64,000 nt of DNA from Bryobacteraceae bacterium (GTDB lineage: Bacteria; Acidobacteriota; Terriglobia; Bryobacterales; Bryobacteraceae): assembly GCA_019187195.1 (NCBI GenBank), contig JABAQT010000020.1, positions 19,699 to 83,698 of the forward strand. The letters are read 5' to 3'. The notes below the pieces were generated by a model that had not been told where the DNA came from, did no database searches, and worked only from the letters and a program-made list of their open reading frames with translations. The position numbers and the translations under genes were made by a program. Shown here one piece after another: positions 6,743-46,856 of the stretch (within the stretch, counting starts at the first letter, position 1; the number at the start of each line of letters is the position of its first letter).

Positions 6743-9700
6743 GTGGAACACAACCTTTCAATATATTCGGGCAGGGCCCTCGACTGGATCTCGAGGCCGT
6801 GCGGGAACGGCTGAGCCGGAAATCCGGCCAGGAGTACTGGCGCAGCTTGGAAGAGCTCTCCGATACCCCTGAGTTCCAGGAGTTTCTCGACAACGAGTTT
6901 CCGCAGACCGGCGCGGACTGGCGGAATCCGCTGGACCGGCGGAACCTGCTCAAACTGATGGGAGCTTCCCTGGGGCTGGCGGGGCTGACGGCGTGCACAC
7001 GGCAACCGCTCGAGAAGATTGTGCCTTACGTCAAGCCGCCGGAGGAGTTCGCGGAAAACATTCCGGTGCATTATGCGACTGCTCATTTGATGGGCGGATA
7101 CGCGACGGGCGTGCTGGTGGAGAGCCACCAGGGCCGGCCGACGAAGGCGGAAGGGAACCCGGACCACGCCGGCAGCCTGGGAAGCACGGATATCTTCGCG
7201 CAGGCGAGCCTGCTGTCGTTGTACGATCCGGACCGGTCGAAGACGGTGTTGCGCGACGGGGAGATCAGCAACAACACGTCGTTCTGGGCGGCGCTGACGG
7301 TGCTGCGCGAAAAGCACTTCGAGGCCAAGGGCGCGGGGATGCGGATTCTCACCGAAACCATCACCTCGCCGAGCCTGCTCGAGTCGATGAAAGAGCTCCT
7401 GGCGATGATGCCGGAGCTGAAGTGGCATGTTTGGGATCCCGTGAATCCGGACGGGGCGCGCGAGGGCGCGAAGCTGGCGTTCGGCGAGCCGGTGTCGCAC
7501 CACTACAAACTCGAAACGGCGGACGTGATTTTCTCGCTCGACGCGGATTTTCTCTACACCGGCGTGGGCGCGGTGCGCTACGCCAGAGAGTTCGCGGCGC
7601 GGCGCCGGCCGGAAGAGGGCCGGAAGCGGATGAACCGCTTTTACGCGGTGGAAACGCACCCCTCGGTGACAAGCGTGTTGTCGGACCACCGGTTGGCCGT
7701 GAAGCCGAGCGAAGTGGAAGCGGTCGCGCGCAGCCTGGCCGTGAAGCTGGGGGTGGCGGCGGACGCGCCGGGAGTGCTCCCCCAGGACGCCTGGATCGCC
7801 GCGCTGGCAAAGGACCTGGCAGCGCATAAGGGGACGAGTCTCGTGGTGGCCGGCGAGCATCAGCCCGCGATCGTCCACGCGCTGGCGCACGCCATCAACG
7901 AGAAATTGGAGAACGCGGGCAAGACCGTAATCTACACGGAGCCGCTCGAGGGCAACCCGGTCTCGCACGCCGGTTCGCTCAAGGAACTGGCGGCGGACAT
8001 GAACGCCGGAAAGGTGGAGACGCTGCTCATCCTGAGCGCGAATCCGGTCTACACGGCTCCCCCGGACCTGAACTTCCGCGAAGCGTTCCTGAAGGTGAAG
8101 AACCGCATCCAGTTGAGCCAGTACCACGACGAGACAGCGGCGCTGTGCAACTGGCACATTCCGGAAGCGCACACGCTCGAGAGCTGGGGCGACGCGCGCG
8201 CCTATGACGGGACCGTGACCCTGATGCAGCCCCTGATCGACCCCCTCTACAGCGGCAAGACGGCGATGGAAATCATCTCGGCCCTCGCCGGCGTGCAGGG
8301 AACCAACTATCAGAACTGGCGCCGCTACTGGCGCGGGAAAATCGCCGCGCAGGATTATGACGCCCAGTTGCAGAAAGCCCTGCATGACGGATTTTGGGCG
8401 AATTCGGCTCCTCCGCCGAAGACGGTGGCGGTGAAGGGGGACCTGAAAGCGGTCGCCCCAACGCCGGTGGGTGGCGGCATGGAGATCAGCTTCCGGCCGG
8501 ATCCCACGGTTCTCGACGGGCGGTTCGCCAACAACGGATGGCTGCAGGAACTGCCGAAGCCTGTCAGCAAAGTCACCTGGGACAACGCCGCCTATATTGC
8601 TCCATCAACGGCGCAGAAGCTGGGAGTGACCACGGACGACGTGGTCACCATCAAAGCCGGCGGCGCGCATGTGAAAGCGCCGGTGTGGGTGACCCCCGGT
8701 CAGGCGCGCGACACGGTGACGGTACACCTCGGCTACGGACGCGCGAGCGCGGGCAGGATCGGGACCCGGATCGGCTTTGACGCCAACGCGCTGAGAACTT
8801 CCGCGGCGCTGTGGGCTGCCTCGGGAGTCGAGATCACGCCCGCGGGGAGCCGCTACAAGCTCGTGTCCACGCAGACGCACCACGGGATACAGCAGATTAC
8901 CGAGGCCGACGAGGCGCAGAGCGAGCGCCGCCTGGTCCGCGTCGCCACCGAAGAGGAGTATCTGAAAAAGCCGGATTTCGCCAGGGAGATGGTCGAGGAT
9001 CCGGCTCCCGCGTTCAGCCTCTACTCGCCGGGCTTCGACTATTCGCAGGGGTACCGCTGGGGAATGGCGATCGACCTCAACGCCTGTAACGGCTGCGGCG
9101 CGTGCACGATTGCCTGCCAGGCGGAAAACAACATCGCGACGGTGGGCAAGGAAGAGGTCCTGCGCGGAAGGGAGATGCACTGGATCCGCGTCGACCGCTA
9201 CCACAAGGGCGAACTCGACAATCCGGCGGCGTACGCGCAGCCGGTGCCGTGCCAGCATTGCGAGAACGCTCCGTGCGAGACTGTATGTCCCGTGGCGGCG
9301 ACCGTGCACAGCAGCGAGGGGATCAACCAGATGGTTTACAACCGCTGCGTGGGCACCCGCTACTGCTCGAACAACTGCCCCTACAAGGTGCGGCGCTTCA
9401 ACTTCTTCCTCTACAGCGACTGGGATACGCAGAGCCTGTGGGGTTTGCGCAATCCGGATGTTACCGTGCGCAGCCGCGGCGTGATGGAAAAGTGCAGCTA
9501 CTGCATCCAGCGGGTGAGCCGGGCGAAAATCCAGGCGGAAAAGGAAGACCGCCGGGTGAGGGACGGCGAAGTGGTGACAGCCTGCCAGCAGGCGTGCCCC
9601 ACGCAAGCCATCATGTTCGGCGACATGAACGATCGCGAGAGCAAGATCGCCAAGTGGAAAGGCGATGCCAGGAATTACGGAATTCTCACGGACCTCAACA

Positions 9701-41699: not shown

Positions 41700-42950
41700 G
41701 TGCCCCTGCCCTCCGTATCGAACTTACACCGGAATCCCGGACCCGCCCTCGCCGCTCATTGGAAAGCCTGTGGCATCGACCGCGCCTTCCTCCGCCGCAT
41801 GACCGGACATTCGGACAACCTTCGCCACCCGCTCACGCCGGTCCGCGAAGCACAGCTCCGCGATGACCCGTCGGCCGTTCTGCTGCGCCTGTTCTTTTGC
41901 GCCGCGCCCACCCCGGCGCCTGAGGCCGAAGCCGCGCTCGGAGCCGGACTGCTGCGCGCCGCGCTCGAGTGCGGGCTCCTGCTGTCTGACGGCGGCCAGC
42001 TCACCGCGCCATTTCACCTCCGGCTTGTACGCGGACTCTATTTGTTCAGCGACTACCTGAACGGACACTCGGAAGCCGTCATGGGAGCGGGTGAAACCAC
42101 CGCCATCCTCTACCAGGCCGGGTGTCCCGTCCTCCCTGTCCAACGCGCGCTCGATCTCGGTTGCGGCGCGGGAACCCTGGCGCTTCTGCTGGCGGGCGCG
42201 GCTGCCCATGTGGTGGGAACCGACATCAACCCGCGCGCGGTCTCGCTCGCCAGGCTCAACGCTTCGGTGAACGGCATCGGCAATGTGGAATTCCGCCACG
42301 GGGACGGTTTTGCCCCCGTGCGCGGCGAGCGGTTCGACGTCATCCTTTCGCAGCCGCCCTACTACCCCGATCCCCAGGGGGCCCACGCTGAAACCTACCT
42401 CCATGGCGGCGCCCGAGGTGACGAACTCGCCTGGCGTCTCACCATGGAAACCCCGTCCTACCTTACGCCCACCGGCAAGGCGGTCATCTTCGCGTCCTGG
42501 ACCAGTGGACGCCCGCCTATCCACGCGCCGGACCGCAAGGTGTTGGAACTCAGCGCCAACCGCCTCGAGTTGCATGGAACGCGCCAGGGAATCACCGTTC
42601 TCGCGCATGCCGCCGGCGGCGAAGCCTGGCACGCTGGACGCGAGGTGCCGGCCGACCGCTGGGGAGCCGTCACCCGATCCGCCATCGAGGAGATCTTCGC
42701 CATCGAGGACTACCTCTCGCGGCCATCCCCCACGATGAGGTTCGATGTGCCGCCAGGCCTGACCCTATTGCCGGAAGGCTCGGACATCATAGCCCAGGGA
42801 GGTCCCCGGTCATGGGTGGGAACGGTGCCGGTCGACGAGGCCATTCGCGCTGTCCTGGAATCGCCTGATGCCGGCCACCCTCCGCACGCCATTCGTGCCG
42901 CCCTGCGGCGGGGGCTGCTTACGCTCAGGGATGTCCCAACTCCGCCATGA
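41700..42950 (+). CDS. Class I SAM-dependent methyltransferase (HemK/RsmC-like)
   Basis: A 416-residue protein starting at GTG 41700. An N-terminal domain of about 140 residues precedes the SAM domain. The SAM part has ALDLGCGAGTLALLLAGAAAHVVGTDINPRAVSLARLN, then FRHGDGFAPV and the catalytic SQPPYYPD (NPPY-type motif IV). This motif occurs in enzymes that methylate Gln, Asn or exocyclic amines, such as PrmC/HemK and RsmC. The exact target is unknown. The last 26 bases overlap, on the other strand, the end of the ferredoxin-like membrane gene. Confidence 0.8.
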   Translation: MPLPSVSNLHRNPGPALAAHWKACGIDRAFLRRMTGHSDNLRHPLTPVREAQLRDDPSAVLLRLFFCAAPTPAPEAEAALGAGLLRAALECGLLLSDGGQLTAPFHLRLVRGLYLFSDYLNGHSEAVMGAGETTAILYQAGCPVLPVQRALDLGCGAGTLALLLAGAAAHVVGTDINPRAVSLARLNASVNGIGNVEFRHGDGFAPVRGERFDVILSQPPYYPDPQGAHAETYLHGGARGDELAWRLTMETPSYLTPTGKAVIFASWTSGRPPIHAPDRKVLELSANRLELHGTRQGITVLAHAAGGEAWHAGREVPADRWGAVTRSAIEEIFAIEDYLSRPSPTMRFDVPPGLTLLPEGSDIIAQGGPRSWVGTVPVDEAIRAVLESPDAGHPPHAIRAALRRGLLTLRDVPTPP

Positions 42951-43944
42951 TCGGAATCAGCCGCCGGTAGACCGCCTCGGGCACCGTCCCCTCCCAATAT
43001 CCGCTCACCATGGCAAATCCCACGACGCCGAGGAACACCGCCGCGATCGCCGCCGCCATCACCCACGGCCGCACTTCGCGTCCGCCTGGAGCCGCCATCG
43101 CCAGCGCTCCTTCCGCCGGACACGCCGCGACGCATTCCATGCATCCGAGGCATTCGGCCGAGCGGACTCGCGCCAGCGTGTCCACGGGCAGCTTCGCCGG
43201 GCAGGCCCTGGCGCACTTGGCGCAGTCGATACAGCGCTCCGCGTTGCGCCGGATGCGCAGCGGGCTGAGCAGCGAGGCGATGCCCATCAGCGCCCCGTAG
43301 GGGCACAGGTAGCGGCACCAGAAGTTGCGCACAAACACCGATGCCGCCACCAGCACCGTTAACACAATCGCGGCGGTGACGCTGAGATGGCGGAAGAAAT
43401 CGAGCATCTTCACGTCGGCCAGCACACCATAAGGAGAGTGCAGAAACGCCCGGAGATCCGCCGCGTCCATGCCGGCCACCGCGTATGCAAAGAATCCAAA
43501 CAGCAGGTATTTCAATCCCCGGAGCGGTACGTCGATCCATCGCGGCGGCGAAAAGTTGCGGCCAAAGGTGTCGCGCCCCAGTTTCCACAACTGCTCGGAA
43601 ACGGCTCCCACCGGACAAAGCCACCCGCAGAACGCCTTCCGCAGCAACAGGCTCATGCCGAGAAACGCGGCGAACAGAAACATGGCCGCCGGATGCACGC
43701 CCGGAACCTCTCCCGTGAGCAGGAAGTACTTCGTGTTCATCATCCCGGCGATGGGCAGCCACCCCTCTACGCCGGCCGGGCGGGTCCACCCTCCGCTTCC
43801 GGTCTCCACTCCGCGCACGAAAAAGTAAAACTGCGCTCCGATCCAGAGGTTCAGCACAAAGAAGAGGCCCTGTACGGTCCTCCGGACCATCTGGGACTCG
43901 TCAGGCGGCGTTCGGCGAATCAGCACTTTCCTTTGCGCGTCCAT
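42925..43944 (-). CDS. NapH/NosR-like polyferredoxin membrane protein
   Basis: A 339-residue membrane protein with four to five helices, an FCGWLCPVG and an FWCRYLCPYG motif of the 4Fe-4S_5 type, and two cysteine-rich ferredoxin clusters in CIDCAKCARACP and CLGCMECVAACP. This arrangement matches NapH, NosR and CcoG-like electron carriers that connect quinones or cytoplasmic donors to periplasmic or membrane reductases. A final helix follows the ferredoxin clusters. No nap or nos genes are near, so its partner is not clear. The cas6-like gene upstream ends 44 bases from its start. Confidence 0.85.
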   Translation of the reverse strand: MDAQRKVLIRRTPPDESQMVRRTVQGLFFVLNLWIGAQFYFFVRGVETGSGGWTRPAGVEGWLPIAGMMNTKYFLLTGEVPGVHPAAMFLFAAFLGMSLLLRKAFCGWLCPVGAVSEQLWKLGRDTFGRNFSPPRWIDVPLRGLKYLLFGFFAYAVAGMDAADLRAFLHSPYGVLADVKMLDFFRHLSVTAAIVLTVLVAASVFVRNFWCRYLCPYGALMGIASLLSPLRIRRNAERCIDCAKCARACPAKLPVDTLARVRSAECLGCMECVAACPAEGALAMAAPGGREVRPWVMAAAIAAVFLGVVGFAMVSGYWEGTVPEAVYRRLIPIMAELGHP

Positions 43945-43988: not shown

Positions 43989-44807
43989 TCACAGAATCGC
44001 GATTTCCCCTTTCCCCCAAACCGTTTGCCGCCCAACTCCGGTATGTGCCGCCGCCTCGAGATAGGGCACAAATTCCGCCAAATCCCCCTCGTAAGCGGCA
44101 GTTCCCACAAAGCCGCCCAAAGGATGGCGCTGGCCGGTGCGGCGGCTTTGGCGCTCGGCGTCCACGCGCCGTACATCGCGGGAGGAGAGGCGAACAGCCG
44201 CGGCGCGCTCCCCGAATTTACGGAAATCCATCTCCAGCGGACCCGCCCCATAAAGCGCGCGCAGCGTGCTGATGCGATCCCGGATCCGCGCCATCAGGAT
44301 GCCGAAGAGCGGCTCCCGCAACAACCCCCCGTCTCCTTTTATCTCCGTTGGGGTAATGAAGCGCACTCCAATGTGGTCGAGGTTGCCGGGGCGTTCGGAC
44401 AGGTCCACGCAGCATGGCTGTTGCCGCCAGTCGACCAGTGCTGCTTTCCCCCGGCCCGGACCGAGCCCCTCCCACCCCAGCCGGCCGAACGCCTCCGCAA
44501 AGACTCGTCCCCCTTCCCCACCCTCCTCAAACAGGTTCATCCCGAAAACAAACCGTTCTCCCGGCTCCGCCCGCAATCCCGCCTCCAACTCCGCCACGCG
44601 GAATACGAAGGGTCGCGGCGCGTCGGCGAATCCGCTCGGGCCGCCCGCCGTACGCGGCGCGAACATCCTCTCATATGCCCCCGCATCGGCTGCGCGCAGC
44701 ATCAGCCCCAGGGACCCGCGCAACACGTTCCCCGCTTTTCCCGGCGGCAGATACACCGCCTCTCTCGCTTCCATCTCGAAACGCAGCCGGTGGAAGTGGA
44801 ACCGCAT
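43989..44807 (-). CDS. Cas6-type RAMP protein, orphan
   Basis: A 272-residue RAMP protein. The N-half has PPGKAGNVLRGSLGLMLR and PRPFVFRVAEL. The C-half matches the Cas6 C-terminal domain: VRFITPTEIKG (about 148-158), ILMARIRDRISTLRALYG, then SRRTGQRHPLGGFVGTAAYEGDLAEFVPYL, and the Gly-rich loop G257-V-G-R-Q-T-V-W-G-K-G267. These are the RNA-binding hallmarks of a CRISPR pre-crRNA endonuclease. No CRISPR array or other cas gene is visible in the window. It ends a leftward run dacB, fmdB-like, zinc ribbon, cas6-like. The catalytic residue is not obvious. The target RNA is unknown. Confidence 0.82.
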   Translation of the reverse strand: MRFHFHRLRFEMEAREAVYLPPGKAGNVLRGSLGLMLRAADAGAYERMFAPRTAGGPSGFADAPRPFVFRVAELEAGLRAEPGERFVFGMNLFEEGGEGGRVFAEAFGRLGWEGLGPGRGKAALVDWRQQPCCVDLSERPGNLDHIGVRFITPTEIKGDGGLLREPLFGILMARIRDRISTLRALYGAGPLEMDFRKFGERAAAVRLSSRDVRRVDAERQSRRTGQRHPLGGFVGTAAYEGDLAEFVPYLEAAAHTGVGRQTVWGKGEIAIL

Positions 44808-44820
44808 TCCCTTCCCGCCC

Positions 44821-45093
44821 TTACTCGGTCAGAAATGCGATGGTCTTGGTTCCCGATACGTCGAAAGGCTTGCGGCAGCGCTTGCAGGATACCTTGTCCT
44901 GCGCCAGAACCATGTAGCTCTGCATCTTGGCGAACTTCGCGCGGTCGCGCTCATCGGCCCCGCGCGGGACCGCGCCCTTCTTCCTGCGGACAACCCAGGG
45001 CAGTTCGTAAGATTCCTTGCCCCGGCAAAAGCTGCACACCAGGTCAATCGCCTTCGTGGTCCTCGACTCGACGAAGAAATCGCGTTCGTCCAT
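44821..45093 (-). CDS. Small zinc-ribbon protein of unknown function
   Basis: A 90-residue protein with two Cys pairs, CSFC near residue 20 and CKRC near residue 70. Together they form a zinc ribbon around a basic linker (VVRRKKGAVPRGADERDRAKFAKM). It lies 12 bases after the FmdB-like gene and 13 bases before the Cas6-type gene. A charged, four-Cys, RNA-binding-like fold next to a RAMP protein is suggestive but not proof of a joint role. Confidence 0.65.
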   Translation of the reverse strand: MDERDFFVESRTTKAIDLVCSFCRGKESYELPWVVRRKKGAVPRGADERDRAKFAKMQSYMVLAQDKVSCKRCRKPFDVSGTKTIAFLTE

Positions 45094-45105
45094 TTGGATG
45101 CGGCG

Positions 45106-45327
45106 TCAGTTCCGGCCGCAGAAATCCGGGCTTCCGCACATCCCGCCGGGACATTGCGGCATTTCACTCCGCGCCGGAGAACCGTTGGCGTGCGCGGAAA
45201 ACGTCGAGAGTTGCTGCGTCAGATGGCTCGACGCGCACTTCGGACATTCGATGGCGTCCTCCGCCCGCCGCACCAGCTTCTCGAACTTCGTTCCGCATTC
45301 ATCGCATGCATATTCAAAGATGGGCAT
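45106..45327 (-). CDS. FmdB-family zinc-ribbon protein
   Basis: A 73-residue protein starting at ATG 45327. MPIFEYACDECGTKFEKLV is the FmdB/CxxC regulatory-domain signature, and the second pair is in IECPKCASSHL. A Gly/Cys-rich tail (MPQCPGGMCGSPDFCGRN) adds three more Cys. FmdB proteins are thought to regulate or process nucleic acids, but their role is unclear. The start is five bases after the stop of dacB, so translation may be coupled. Confidence 0.8.
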   Translation of the reverse strand: MPIFEYACDECGTKFEKLVRRAEDAIECPKCASSHLTQQLSTFSAHANGSPARSEMPQCPGGMCGSPDFCGRN

Positions 45328-45332
45328 ATGAA

Positions 45333-46856
45333 TCAGTTCCCTTCCCAATCAATCAACGCTAATCCAATTCTATCAATCACCCGGCGCACCTCGGAAGAAC
45401 GCATCGTATAACCATTGGCAATGATCGAGAAAGCGAGGCGCGCCTTGCGCCTCGTGGTGACATATCCGGAAAGCGCGCTTGCCGTCGAAAGTGTTCCGGT
45501 CTTGGCATGGATGGCCGAGGCGAGACGAGCCTTTTCAAACCGCGACTCGAGAGTCCCGTCCTCTCCCCCAACCGGCAACATTCTGTCCCATCCATCGTGC
45601 TCCCGGCCATCCATGTAGACCAGCAGGCGCGTCACCGCCGCCGGAGTCACCAGCGTCCGCCGCGACAGCCCCGAGCCGTCCTCGAAATGATAGGCATCCA
45701 CCGGCACTCCGATTTCGTCGAGAAACTCCTTCATCTCCTTCAATCCGGCCTCCCTTGTTGCGTCCTTCTCTCTTACCCGGGCCACTTCGCGCAACAGGAT
45801 CTCGGCGTGCAGGTTCTGGCTGACTTTGTCCACCACCCGCGCCACCTCGGAAAGCGGAGGCGATTCCCGCCGCGCCAGTTCCACGCCTTCCTTCCGATCG
45901 AAGGGCTCCTCCGGAGACCAGCGATGACGCGCCACCGGAACTCCGTCGATCCGCACGCCTCGCCGCGTCAACTCGTCATGCAGAACATACGCCGCATAGA
46001 GCGCCGGATCGTTCACCGCCAGCAGTTGACGCACTCCCTTGCTCCGCAACCGCAACTGTCCTGTTATGCGCACCTCACGCGAGCCCGCCAGTCGTTTCAC
46101 CTGCACGTCCGAAACACTGCCGTCGCCCACCGTGGTCACCTGGTTGTCGATGACAAGGGGAATCGCCGGAGGACTCAGCATCACGCGGGCCGGCAGGCCC
46201 TCTCCCGCGCCCGGCCGCACCGCCAGGGTGAACGCATTGTCGTTGAAAACCAGCGCGCTCACCGGAGCGCCGTACTCCCAGATGCTGTCATCCACGGTCC
46301 AACCCTCCGGGTAGGGGTCATAAGGAAACAACCTGTCATCGCCCACGACGTCGCCGCTGATCACGCGAACCCCGCGGTCAAGAATCGCGTTGCACAGCGC
46401 TTCCACCGGCTCCAGCGGATTCGGCGCATCGTCGTCTTTCCGGTAGGGATATGCTCTCCCCGAGAATGTGGGGTCGGCCCCGCCAACCAGGCGCAAGTCG
46501 CCCTCGATGCGCCCCTCACCGTCCGGGTTCTGGTCCGCCCGCACCGTGGTCACGAAACGGTAATCCTTGCCCAATCGCGACAAGGCGAGCGCGGTGGTGA
46601 ATAGCTTCATGTTCGAGGCGGGGGCGAAGCGCCCGCCCGCGTTGTGTTCGTACACCACGCGGCCGGTCTTCAACTCCACCACATGAATCCCCCAGTGTGC
46701 GTCCCGCGCGGGTTTGGCCGCCAGCAGTGCGCCGATACGGCGCTGCAGGCTGAGCGGGCGCGATGTCCTCTCTACCGGCCTTCCGGCCTCCGGTTCCGCG
46801 TGCGCGGCCATCGCTGCCAGCGCCGCTACCCAAATCACTCCGCGGGACATTCGCAT
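45333..46856 (-). CDS. dacB: PBP4-type D-Ala-D-Ala carboxypeptidase/endopeptidase
   Basis: A 507-residue secreted protein with a signal peptide (MSRGVIWVAALAAMAAHA). The class C penicillin-binding protein motifs are present: S81-x-x-K84 in ASNMKLF, an SxN in DKVSQNLHAE, and KTG in HAKTGTLSTAS. An inserted domain lies between the first two motifs, typical of PBP4. It trims or cleaves peptidoglycan cross-links in the periplasm. It heads the run dacB, fmdB-like, zinc ribbon, cas6-like. A TACATT box and AAGGAAA lie in the 54-base gap after the metal efflux gene. ATG 46850 is an alternative start. Confidence 0.9.
   Translation of the reverse strand: MRMSRGVIWVAALAAMAAHAEPEAGRPVERTSRPLSLQRRIGALLAAKPARDAHWGIHVVELKTGRVVYEHNAGGRFAPASNMKLFTTALALSRLGKDYRFVTTVRADQNPDGEGRIEGDLRLVGGADPTFSGRAYPYRKDDDAPNPLEPVEALCNAILDRGVRVISGDVVGDDRLFPYDPYPEGWTVDDSIWEYGAPVSALVFNDNAFTLAVRPGAGEGLPARVMLSPPAIPLVIDNQVTTVGDGSVSDVQVKRLAGSREVRITGQLRLRSKGVRQLLAVNDPALYAAYVLHDELTRRGVRIDGVPVARHRWSPEEPFDRKEGVELARRESPPLSEVARVVDKVSQNLHAEILLREVARVREKDATREAGLKEMKEFLDEIGVPVDAYHFEDGSGLSRRTLVTPAAVTRLLVYMDGREHDGWDRMLPVGGEDGTLESRFEKARLASAIHAKTGTLSTASALSGYVTTRRKARLAFSIIANGYTMRSSEVRRVIDRIGLALIDWEGN

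Follow-up and report, generated by a model that had tools for sequence, protein, structure and literature searches.

A solo Cas6 in Bryobacteraceae and its candidate partner, an array-less type III-A Csm cassette

The window analysed here, a stretch of 64,000 nucleotides (64 kb) from contig JABAQT010000020.1 of a Bryobacteraceae genome, encodes a homologue of Cas6, the endoribonuclease of clustered regularly interspaced short palindromic repeats (CRISPR) systems:

43989..44807, minus strand: cas6, solo Cas6 homologue of 272 amino acids (aa), with PF10040 and PADLOC Cas6 matches

We propose that this protein processes RNA in trans for a type III-A Csm cassette of five subunits, encoded on a different contig (C29) of its genome, a reading to which we assign a probability of about 0.57. 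The solo Cas6 likely serves this separate Csm complex also in genomes in which no Cas1 was found, and our confidence that the two act jointly is moderate. Each of them, the solo Cas6 and the compact Csm complex, is kept apart from arrays across the family, making the window gene less ordinary than the orphan suggested by an initial annotation of this DNA.

The window gene and the Csm cassette

We assign the window gene to the Cas6 family with high confidence. Its product matches PF10040 (CRISPR_Cas6, Pfam) at 2.1e-12, with 48 bits against a curated cut-off of 25, and the PADLOC Cas6 profile covers residues 1-270 (1.3e-58); none of the NCBIfam profiles searched matched it. The predicted structure consists of two ferredoxin-like (RRM) domains across the whole length, which is the Cas6 fold, and the motifs quoted in the initial annotation (ITPTEIK, SRRTGQ, PLGGFVG and the segment G257-G267) are all present in the protein. 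Since 4318 homologues were recovered from 7994 scored candidates, the Cas6 match is not due to chance. Several Cas6s carry a catalytic histidine in the N-terminal half. In an alignment of 102 Cas6s (97 without and five with adjacent type I-A genes), R174, R178, R219, S221, H228, Y239, G259 and W264 are invariant. Compared with the Cas6 endoribonuclease family (PF10040; solved structures 6fjw, 4c9d and 4ill), the aligned proteins have their only invariant histidine at H228, in the C-terminal half, and the window protein has no adjoining cas gene or array. No CRISPR-like repeat series was detected in the 64 kb, and tblastn with the genome's own type I-A-like and Csm proteins returned no homologue there except the solo Cas6 (Cas profiles were run on part of the window's open reading frames, ORFs). 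An array or cas genes close by, which are the common though not obligatory setting of a Cas6 (action in trans is known), were not found in the window, and these searches bear out the annotation's statement that the 64 kb hold no array and no other cas gene.

The candidate partner was recognised through PF22335, the Cas10 palm domain, whose match on contig C29 belongs to a 489-aa Cas10 followed in one run by csm2, csm3, csm4 and csm5. Confidence in the identity of this cassette as a type III-A Csm effector is high. Csm2, Csm3, Csm4 and Csm5 all exceed their NCBIfam cut-offs; the Cas10 falls below the Cas10/Csm1 equivalog cut-off (TIGR02578, 146 bits against 170), which it matches in two stretches, the best covering profile positions 490-750 of 753, the C-terminal part. 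An N-terminal HD nuclease is common, though not universal, in type III Cas10s. The C29 protein has no HD family match in Pfam, eight of 120 listed homologues have "HD" among their first 60 residues, and judged from its sequence this is apparently a compact Cas10 without the HD nuclease domain. Its palm motif is SGGDDF, and GGDDF recurs in 110 of the 120 listed homologues. All 20 recovered Csm3 ORFs carry the motif GGADNPVVKDAFG or close variants, the aspartate of which we take to be the residue that cuts target RNA. An AlphaFold2 model of the Cas10, of low confidence (predicted local distance difference test score 65.4) and taken as support only, finds its best structural matches in Csm1 chains. 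An ATPase gene follows the csm run; neither it nor any of the five csm genes gave a sign of a further nuclease, and a Csx1 HEPN effector sought in the genome gave no match.

Conservation of this cassette was assessed in a set of 150 family genomes, 109 of them good. PF22335 was matched in 139 (101 of the good ones), a count to be read loosely because the profile alone is unspecific, ringing in E. coli too and counting ordinary Cas10s. Each of the 21 further family genomes examined matched all five csm genes with their order unchanged, one of them (G006, below) with cas10 and csm3 in pieces. From named genomes, the best 80 of 149 relatives were taken, with up to 10 kb fetched for each; 62 of these 80 loci matched the complete run, and in the remaining 18 the sequence stops 0-858 bases past the last match. 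Within these 80 loci no cas6, cas1, cas3 or cas7 match was obtained. Repeat series flagged in nine of them were rejected as arrays, being tandem or coding repeats. Outside the genus, identity to the C29 copy is 67-91% for Csm2 and 66-79% for Csm3. Across 396 genomes of the phylum, a full-length match to the Cas10 was found in three, all from this family, and 19 others match it partly, most in frames of at least 600 aa and five in frames of 365-531 aa. Nearly all homologues and loci that bear names come from Bryobacteraceae, Bryobacterales, Solibacter or Acidobacteria, and the family of the 150 genomes is accordingly taken to be Bryobacteraceae.

As a rule, CRISPR-Cas systems have a patchy distribution and are lost fast. 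A Csm cassette without adjoining array or adaptation genes, matched in 21 of 21 genomes at the identities given above, points instead to a steady function that is independent of renewing spacers. The array and adaptation genes that mark an adaptive immune system were found neither in the 80 csm loci nor beside cas6 in the window.

Two side observations concern the cassette. Csm2 has a variable-length Gly/Arg-rich N-terminal tail before the conserved Csm2 domain (8109-8573 of locus L138 from C29, and 79 loci, L178-L257), and two or more RGG/GGR triplets are present in 41 of the 79. Two records titled Acidimicrobiia and Bordetella parapertussis (L221, L255) encode Cas10s 54-55% identical to that of C29, and their titles are probably wrong.

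The cassette has close counterparts among described systems. With type III-A systems it shares the cas10-csm2-csm3-csm4-csm5 order and the profile matches, as well as the fit of the low-confidence Cas10 model to Csm1; it differs in its compact, apparently HD-less Cas10, in the lack of an adjoining cas6, cas1 or array in those loci that were read, in its near-universality within one family and in the Gly/Arg-rich tail of Csm2. There are precedents for type III modules that use borrowed CRISPR RNAs (crRNAs) or a Cas6 supplied in trans (PMC5576922, PMC12669027), and the III-B modules of Marinomonas and Sulfolobus islandicus and type III-G are likewise effector modules without array or adaptation genes; here, unlike there, module and Cas6 persist also in genomes without a Cas1 match or a pattern-detected array. 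Array-less derivatives are also known in HRAMP and ARAMP and in a Streptomyces I-E module (PMC8730458, PMC12669027), which resemble the present case as CRISPR derivatives of one group that are array-less or without their own array. Components of those systems have diverged strongly or are associated with other nucleases or with a STAND NTPase; the Csm subunits here can still be recognised, and their palm and Csm3 motifs are for the most part retained. Membership of HRAMP/ARAMP, which would call for strongly diverged Cas5/Cas7 homologues linked to other nucleases, was considered and rejected: Csm3, Csm4 and Csm5 exceed standard cut-offs, and no other nuclease was seen in the run. We found no account of a family-wide Csm-Cas6 pair in searches of open-access literature. 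A type III survey kept only Cas10s of at least 500 aa (PMC11229360), a study of Acidobacteriota counted CRISPRs with CCTyper (PMC11778308), and an Antarctic soil study reports acidobacterial cas loci that all have arrays (PMC11742911). A filter at 500 aa, as described in that survey, would drop most of the forms of about 490 aa and may explain why these searches turned up no description.

Solo Cas6 across the family and the case for joint action

With the window Cas6 as query, matches were obtained in 129 of the 150 family genomes (96 of the 109 good ones), a count that includes copies inside CRISPR loci. For 100 matches from 97 genomes the surroundings were fetched, 56 of them with 4 kb on both sides. 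By tblastn, type I-A-like proteins lie nearby in 4 of the 100 loci, or in 5 of 101 when a second locus of the window's own genome (contig C87, below) is counted, and cas genes missed by these queries may adjoin further cas6 loci. The neighbours are mostly ordinary, varied genes: no cas family is among the 25 commonest Pfam families in ORFs beside cas6 (all 78 ORFs chosen in 22 loci, and 101 of the 137 chosen in the others, long ORFs being left out). In one recurrent setting cas6 stands opposite cspA, 175-527 bases away, with infA in the locus; it accounts for 21 of the 100 loci, from 21 genomes of 13 genera, and 12 of these genomes gave no Cas1 match. Seventeen of these 21 Cas6s form one clade (Shimodaira-Hasegawa-like approximate likelihood ratio support 98), a grouping that argues for prolonged vertical inheritance. 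Ratios of nonsynonymous to synonymous polymorphism (pN/pS) of 0.075-0.357 in 11 close Cas6 pairs, one of which includes a CRISPR-adjacent copy, are signs of purifying selection on the gene. The Cas6 tree is weakly resolved (49 of 98 inner branches open), with CRISPR-linked copies scattered among solo ones, as if Cas6 had been swapped in and then kept while the rest of the CRISPR locus was lost.

The same interleaving would also fit solo cas6 genes as remnants of decayed CRISPR loci persisting for a time by chance, and decay does occur: genome G125 has a broken cas6 (contig C4, locus L113, 717-1070) by a lone CRISPR-repeat-like sequence at about 505, apparently a decayed CRISPR locus. Chance persistence is nonetheless very unlikely given pN/pS well below 1 in the 11 pairs, the invariant residues, one position kept in 13 genera and Cas6 matches in 54 of the 66 family genomes without a Cas1 match.

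A further alternative is that the solo Cas6 acts independently of Csm and has been co-opted for a host RNA, for instance in RNA metabolism. The placement near cspA and infA, which are cold-shock and translation-initiation genes, would suit such a role, as would purifying selection and the seven genomes that have a Cas6 match and no PF22335. Divergent neighbours need no shared function, however, and the other cas6 positions have ordinary, varied ones; an Rfam scan of 10 cas6 loci found no RNA, and a tRNA scan of 40 found no tRNA and one transfer-messenger RNA, in locus L054. Since the Csm complex would otherwise be left without a processing enzyme in most of the same genomes, we consider a host-RNA role without Csm unlikely. 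A conserved RNA gene beside solo cas6 was also sought and rejected, the conserved upstream blocks in the clade examined being cspA and infA coding sequence. Separately, genome G096 has a GC-rich perfect hairpin in two copies about 0.8 kb upstream of its solo cas6 (L040:2263-2330).

A third possibility is offered by the genome's second Cas6, on contig C87, where a type I-A-like locus reads cas6-cas3-cas8a-cas7a-cas5a-cas1-cas2 followed by a cas4-like gene (called from position and by eye; cas2 has a homologue of it downstream in three other loci). C87 likely belongs to this genome, with some doubt because its tetranucleotide agreement with the window is 0.76, below the 0.84-0.90 within the window. 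The window protein might then be a redundant second processing enzyme for the C87 array, unrelated to Csm. Such a locus and one repeat do exist. A full-length comparison of the C87 and window Cas6s gives 42% identity, and every fully invariant residue, H228 and Y239 among them, is present in both. The locus already owns a Cas6, leaving no obvious need for the window gene, and Cas6 is matched in most genomes without Cas1, where array patterns hit almost only singly; we therefore judge redundancy unlikely. The repeat closes the locus at the contig edge, and no further copy was found across the assembly at up to three mismatches. Much of what the initial annotation had named as refuting it was thus observed: the genome-wide check yields a cas locus complete with a Cas6 and a single repeat, and the neighbourhood was not seen beyond the genus. 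The annotation's suggestion that the window protein acts on far arrays is kept in part: action elsewhere in the genome is likely, and the main candidate partner is the array-less Csm cassette. Two features of type I-A-like loci are noted in passing: the C87 Cas3 has its helicase first and its HD domain at the C-terminal end (L006:11470-13806), and a tandem cas6 pair heads one such locus in another genome (G058 contig C534, L156:3676-5595).

Our preference for Csm as the partner is inferred mainly from need: the Csm complex uses a guide that has been processed, and its cassette comes with no processing enzyme of its own. Both genes are near-universal: among the 150 genomes, 122 have Cas6 and PF22335 matches, seven Cas6 only, 17 PF22335 only and four neither (loose counts, with ordinary Cas10s and CRISPR-locus Cas6 copies included). 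Of the 66 without a Cas1 match, 54 have Cas6, 60 PF22335, 50 both and two neither. Among those with both is G145, an assembly of 9.5 Mb in two contigs, in which the TGAAAC repeat pattern (below) had no match either. One genome matched by neither (G064) is taken as strain F-183, for which the authors report no CRISPRs (PMC8759368).

Several observations weigh against joint action. Because both genes are near-universal, their association is weak, with co-occurrence barely above chance (p = 0.049, uncorrected for kinship and assembly completeness). Seventeen genomes with PF22335 have no Cas6 match, and the seven with Cas6 and no PF22335 include all four drawn of one genus (G055, G104, G129, G146). 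Cas6 distances correlate only moderately with those of Cas10, Csm3 and Csm5 (Spearman 0.43-0.44 in 16 genomes); in the same comparison, distances among the Csm subunits give 0.41-0.64. No csm gene was found in the window by tblastn with the genome's own Csm proteins, and cas6 and csm stand side by side in none of the 80 and none of the 21 loci. The N-terminal half of the 102 aligned Cas6s holds no invariant histidine, and cleavage by the solo Cas6 is for this reason only predicted. The palm motif varies in the Cas10s of 21 loci (GGDD in 15, GGDE in four, GGND in two), and in G006 (contig C240, L160:5018-7924) cas10 and csm3 are each in two pieces, broken or misassembled. Finally, the patterns used found no guide array near the csm loci, and no guide array can be named for the genomes without Cas1.

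The guide RNA and a possible mechanism

The pattern GGGGAYTGAAAC occurs in pairs at array spacing in 16 of the 150 family genomes, of which only G046 is without a Cas1 match. A looser pattern, TGAAAC, has matches in 39, and among genomes without Cas1 it reaches at least two matches only in G041, G062 and G116, with two each, those of G041 resembling one tandem repeat; a reversed control pattern also yields scattered matches, one or two each, and both patterns are blind to repeats with other ends. A guide RNA encoded beside csm was considered and rejected, since any one 10-mer recurs in at most 13 of the 80 upstream regions and at most 12 of those downstream. We saw no noncoding element that these loci share next to csm, and a lone GGGGAYTGAAAC lies beside csm in locus L194 only. 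In genomes with type I arrays the guide may be a borrowed crRNA; where neither Cas1 nor an array was detected, another RNA would be needed, or an array type invisible to these patterns. We attach low confidence to any statement on its identity.

If Cas6 and Csm do act together, the solo Cas6 would cut a precursor RNA at the end of a hairpin or repeat, leaving a 5' tag that the Csm complex would hold. RNA-loaded complexes would bind complementary transcripts, which Csm3, with its aspartate kept, may cut, and the compact Cas10, with its palm motif kept and the HD nuclease apparently missing, could make a cyclic-nucleotide signal. More tentatively, and in our view with the odds somewhat against it, the Csm cassette and scattered solo Cas6 may together be a domesticated core machine of the Bryobacteraceae, vertically inherited without CRISPR memory. 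A host-encoded guide would then direct it in regulation or constant surveillance, and an HD-less cyclase Cas10 would send its signal. The scattered solo Cas6 offers a handle on this idea, as its RNA targets would reveal the guide.

Neighbouring genes in the window

The genes around cas6 are as follows:

42925..43944, minus strand: NapH-like 4Fe-4S protein, 44 bases downstream of cas6
44821..45093, minus strand: four-Cys zinc-ribbon protein of 90 aa, without a Pfam match; a family core gene
45106..45327, minus strand: FmdB-family zinc ribbon (TIGR02605, 3e-15; PF09723), ATG start at 45327
45333..46856, minus strand: dacB, PBP4-type D-Ala-D-Ala carboxypeptidase (TIGR00666, 1e-75)

The initial annotation identified FmdB and PBP4/DacB correctly, as these profile matches show, and the coordinates bear out its four-Cys ribbon and its single-strand run with gaps of 5-13 bases (13 between cas6 and the ribbon, 12 between the ribbon and fmdB, five between fmdB and dacB). 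From this spacing it had suggested that Cas6, FmdB and the zinc ribbon form one operon-encoded RNA-processing unit, to be supported by conserved gene order. The same genes do recur in same-genus genome G143 and, with a longer Cas6 that is 45% identical, in G042. The core dacB-fmdB-ribbon run is common to these three genomes and to G098 and G125, also of the genus; the latter two have it without cas6 in the 13 kb read, and cas6 and the NapH gene follow it only in the window's genome, G143 and G042. The full run was not seen beyond the genus. The zinc ribbon is matched in 128 of the 150 family genomes (96 of the 109 good ones), adjoins a cas6 only in the same three, and outside the genus lies on other contigs or far from cas6. 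With gene order failing beyond the genus, the neighbours do not appear to be partners of Cas6; a joint operon function was rejected on these grounds, and we regard a shared RNA-processing unit as extremely unlikely.

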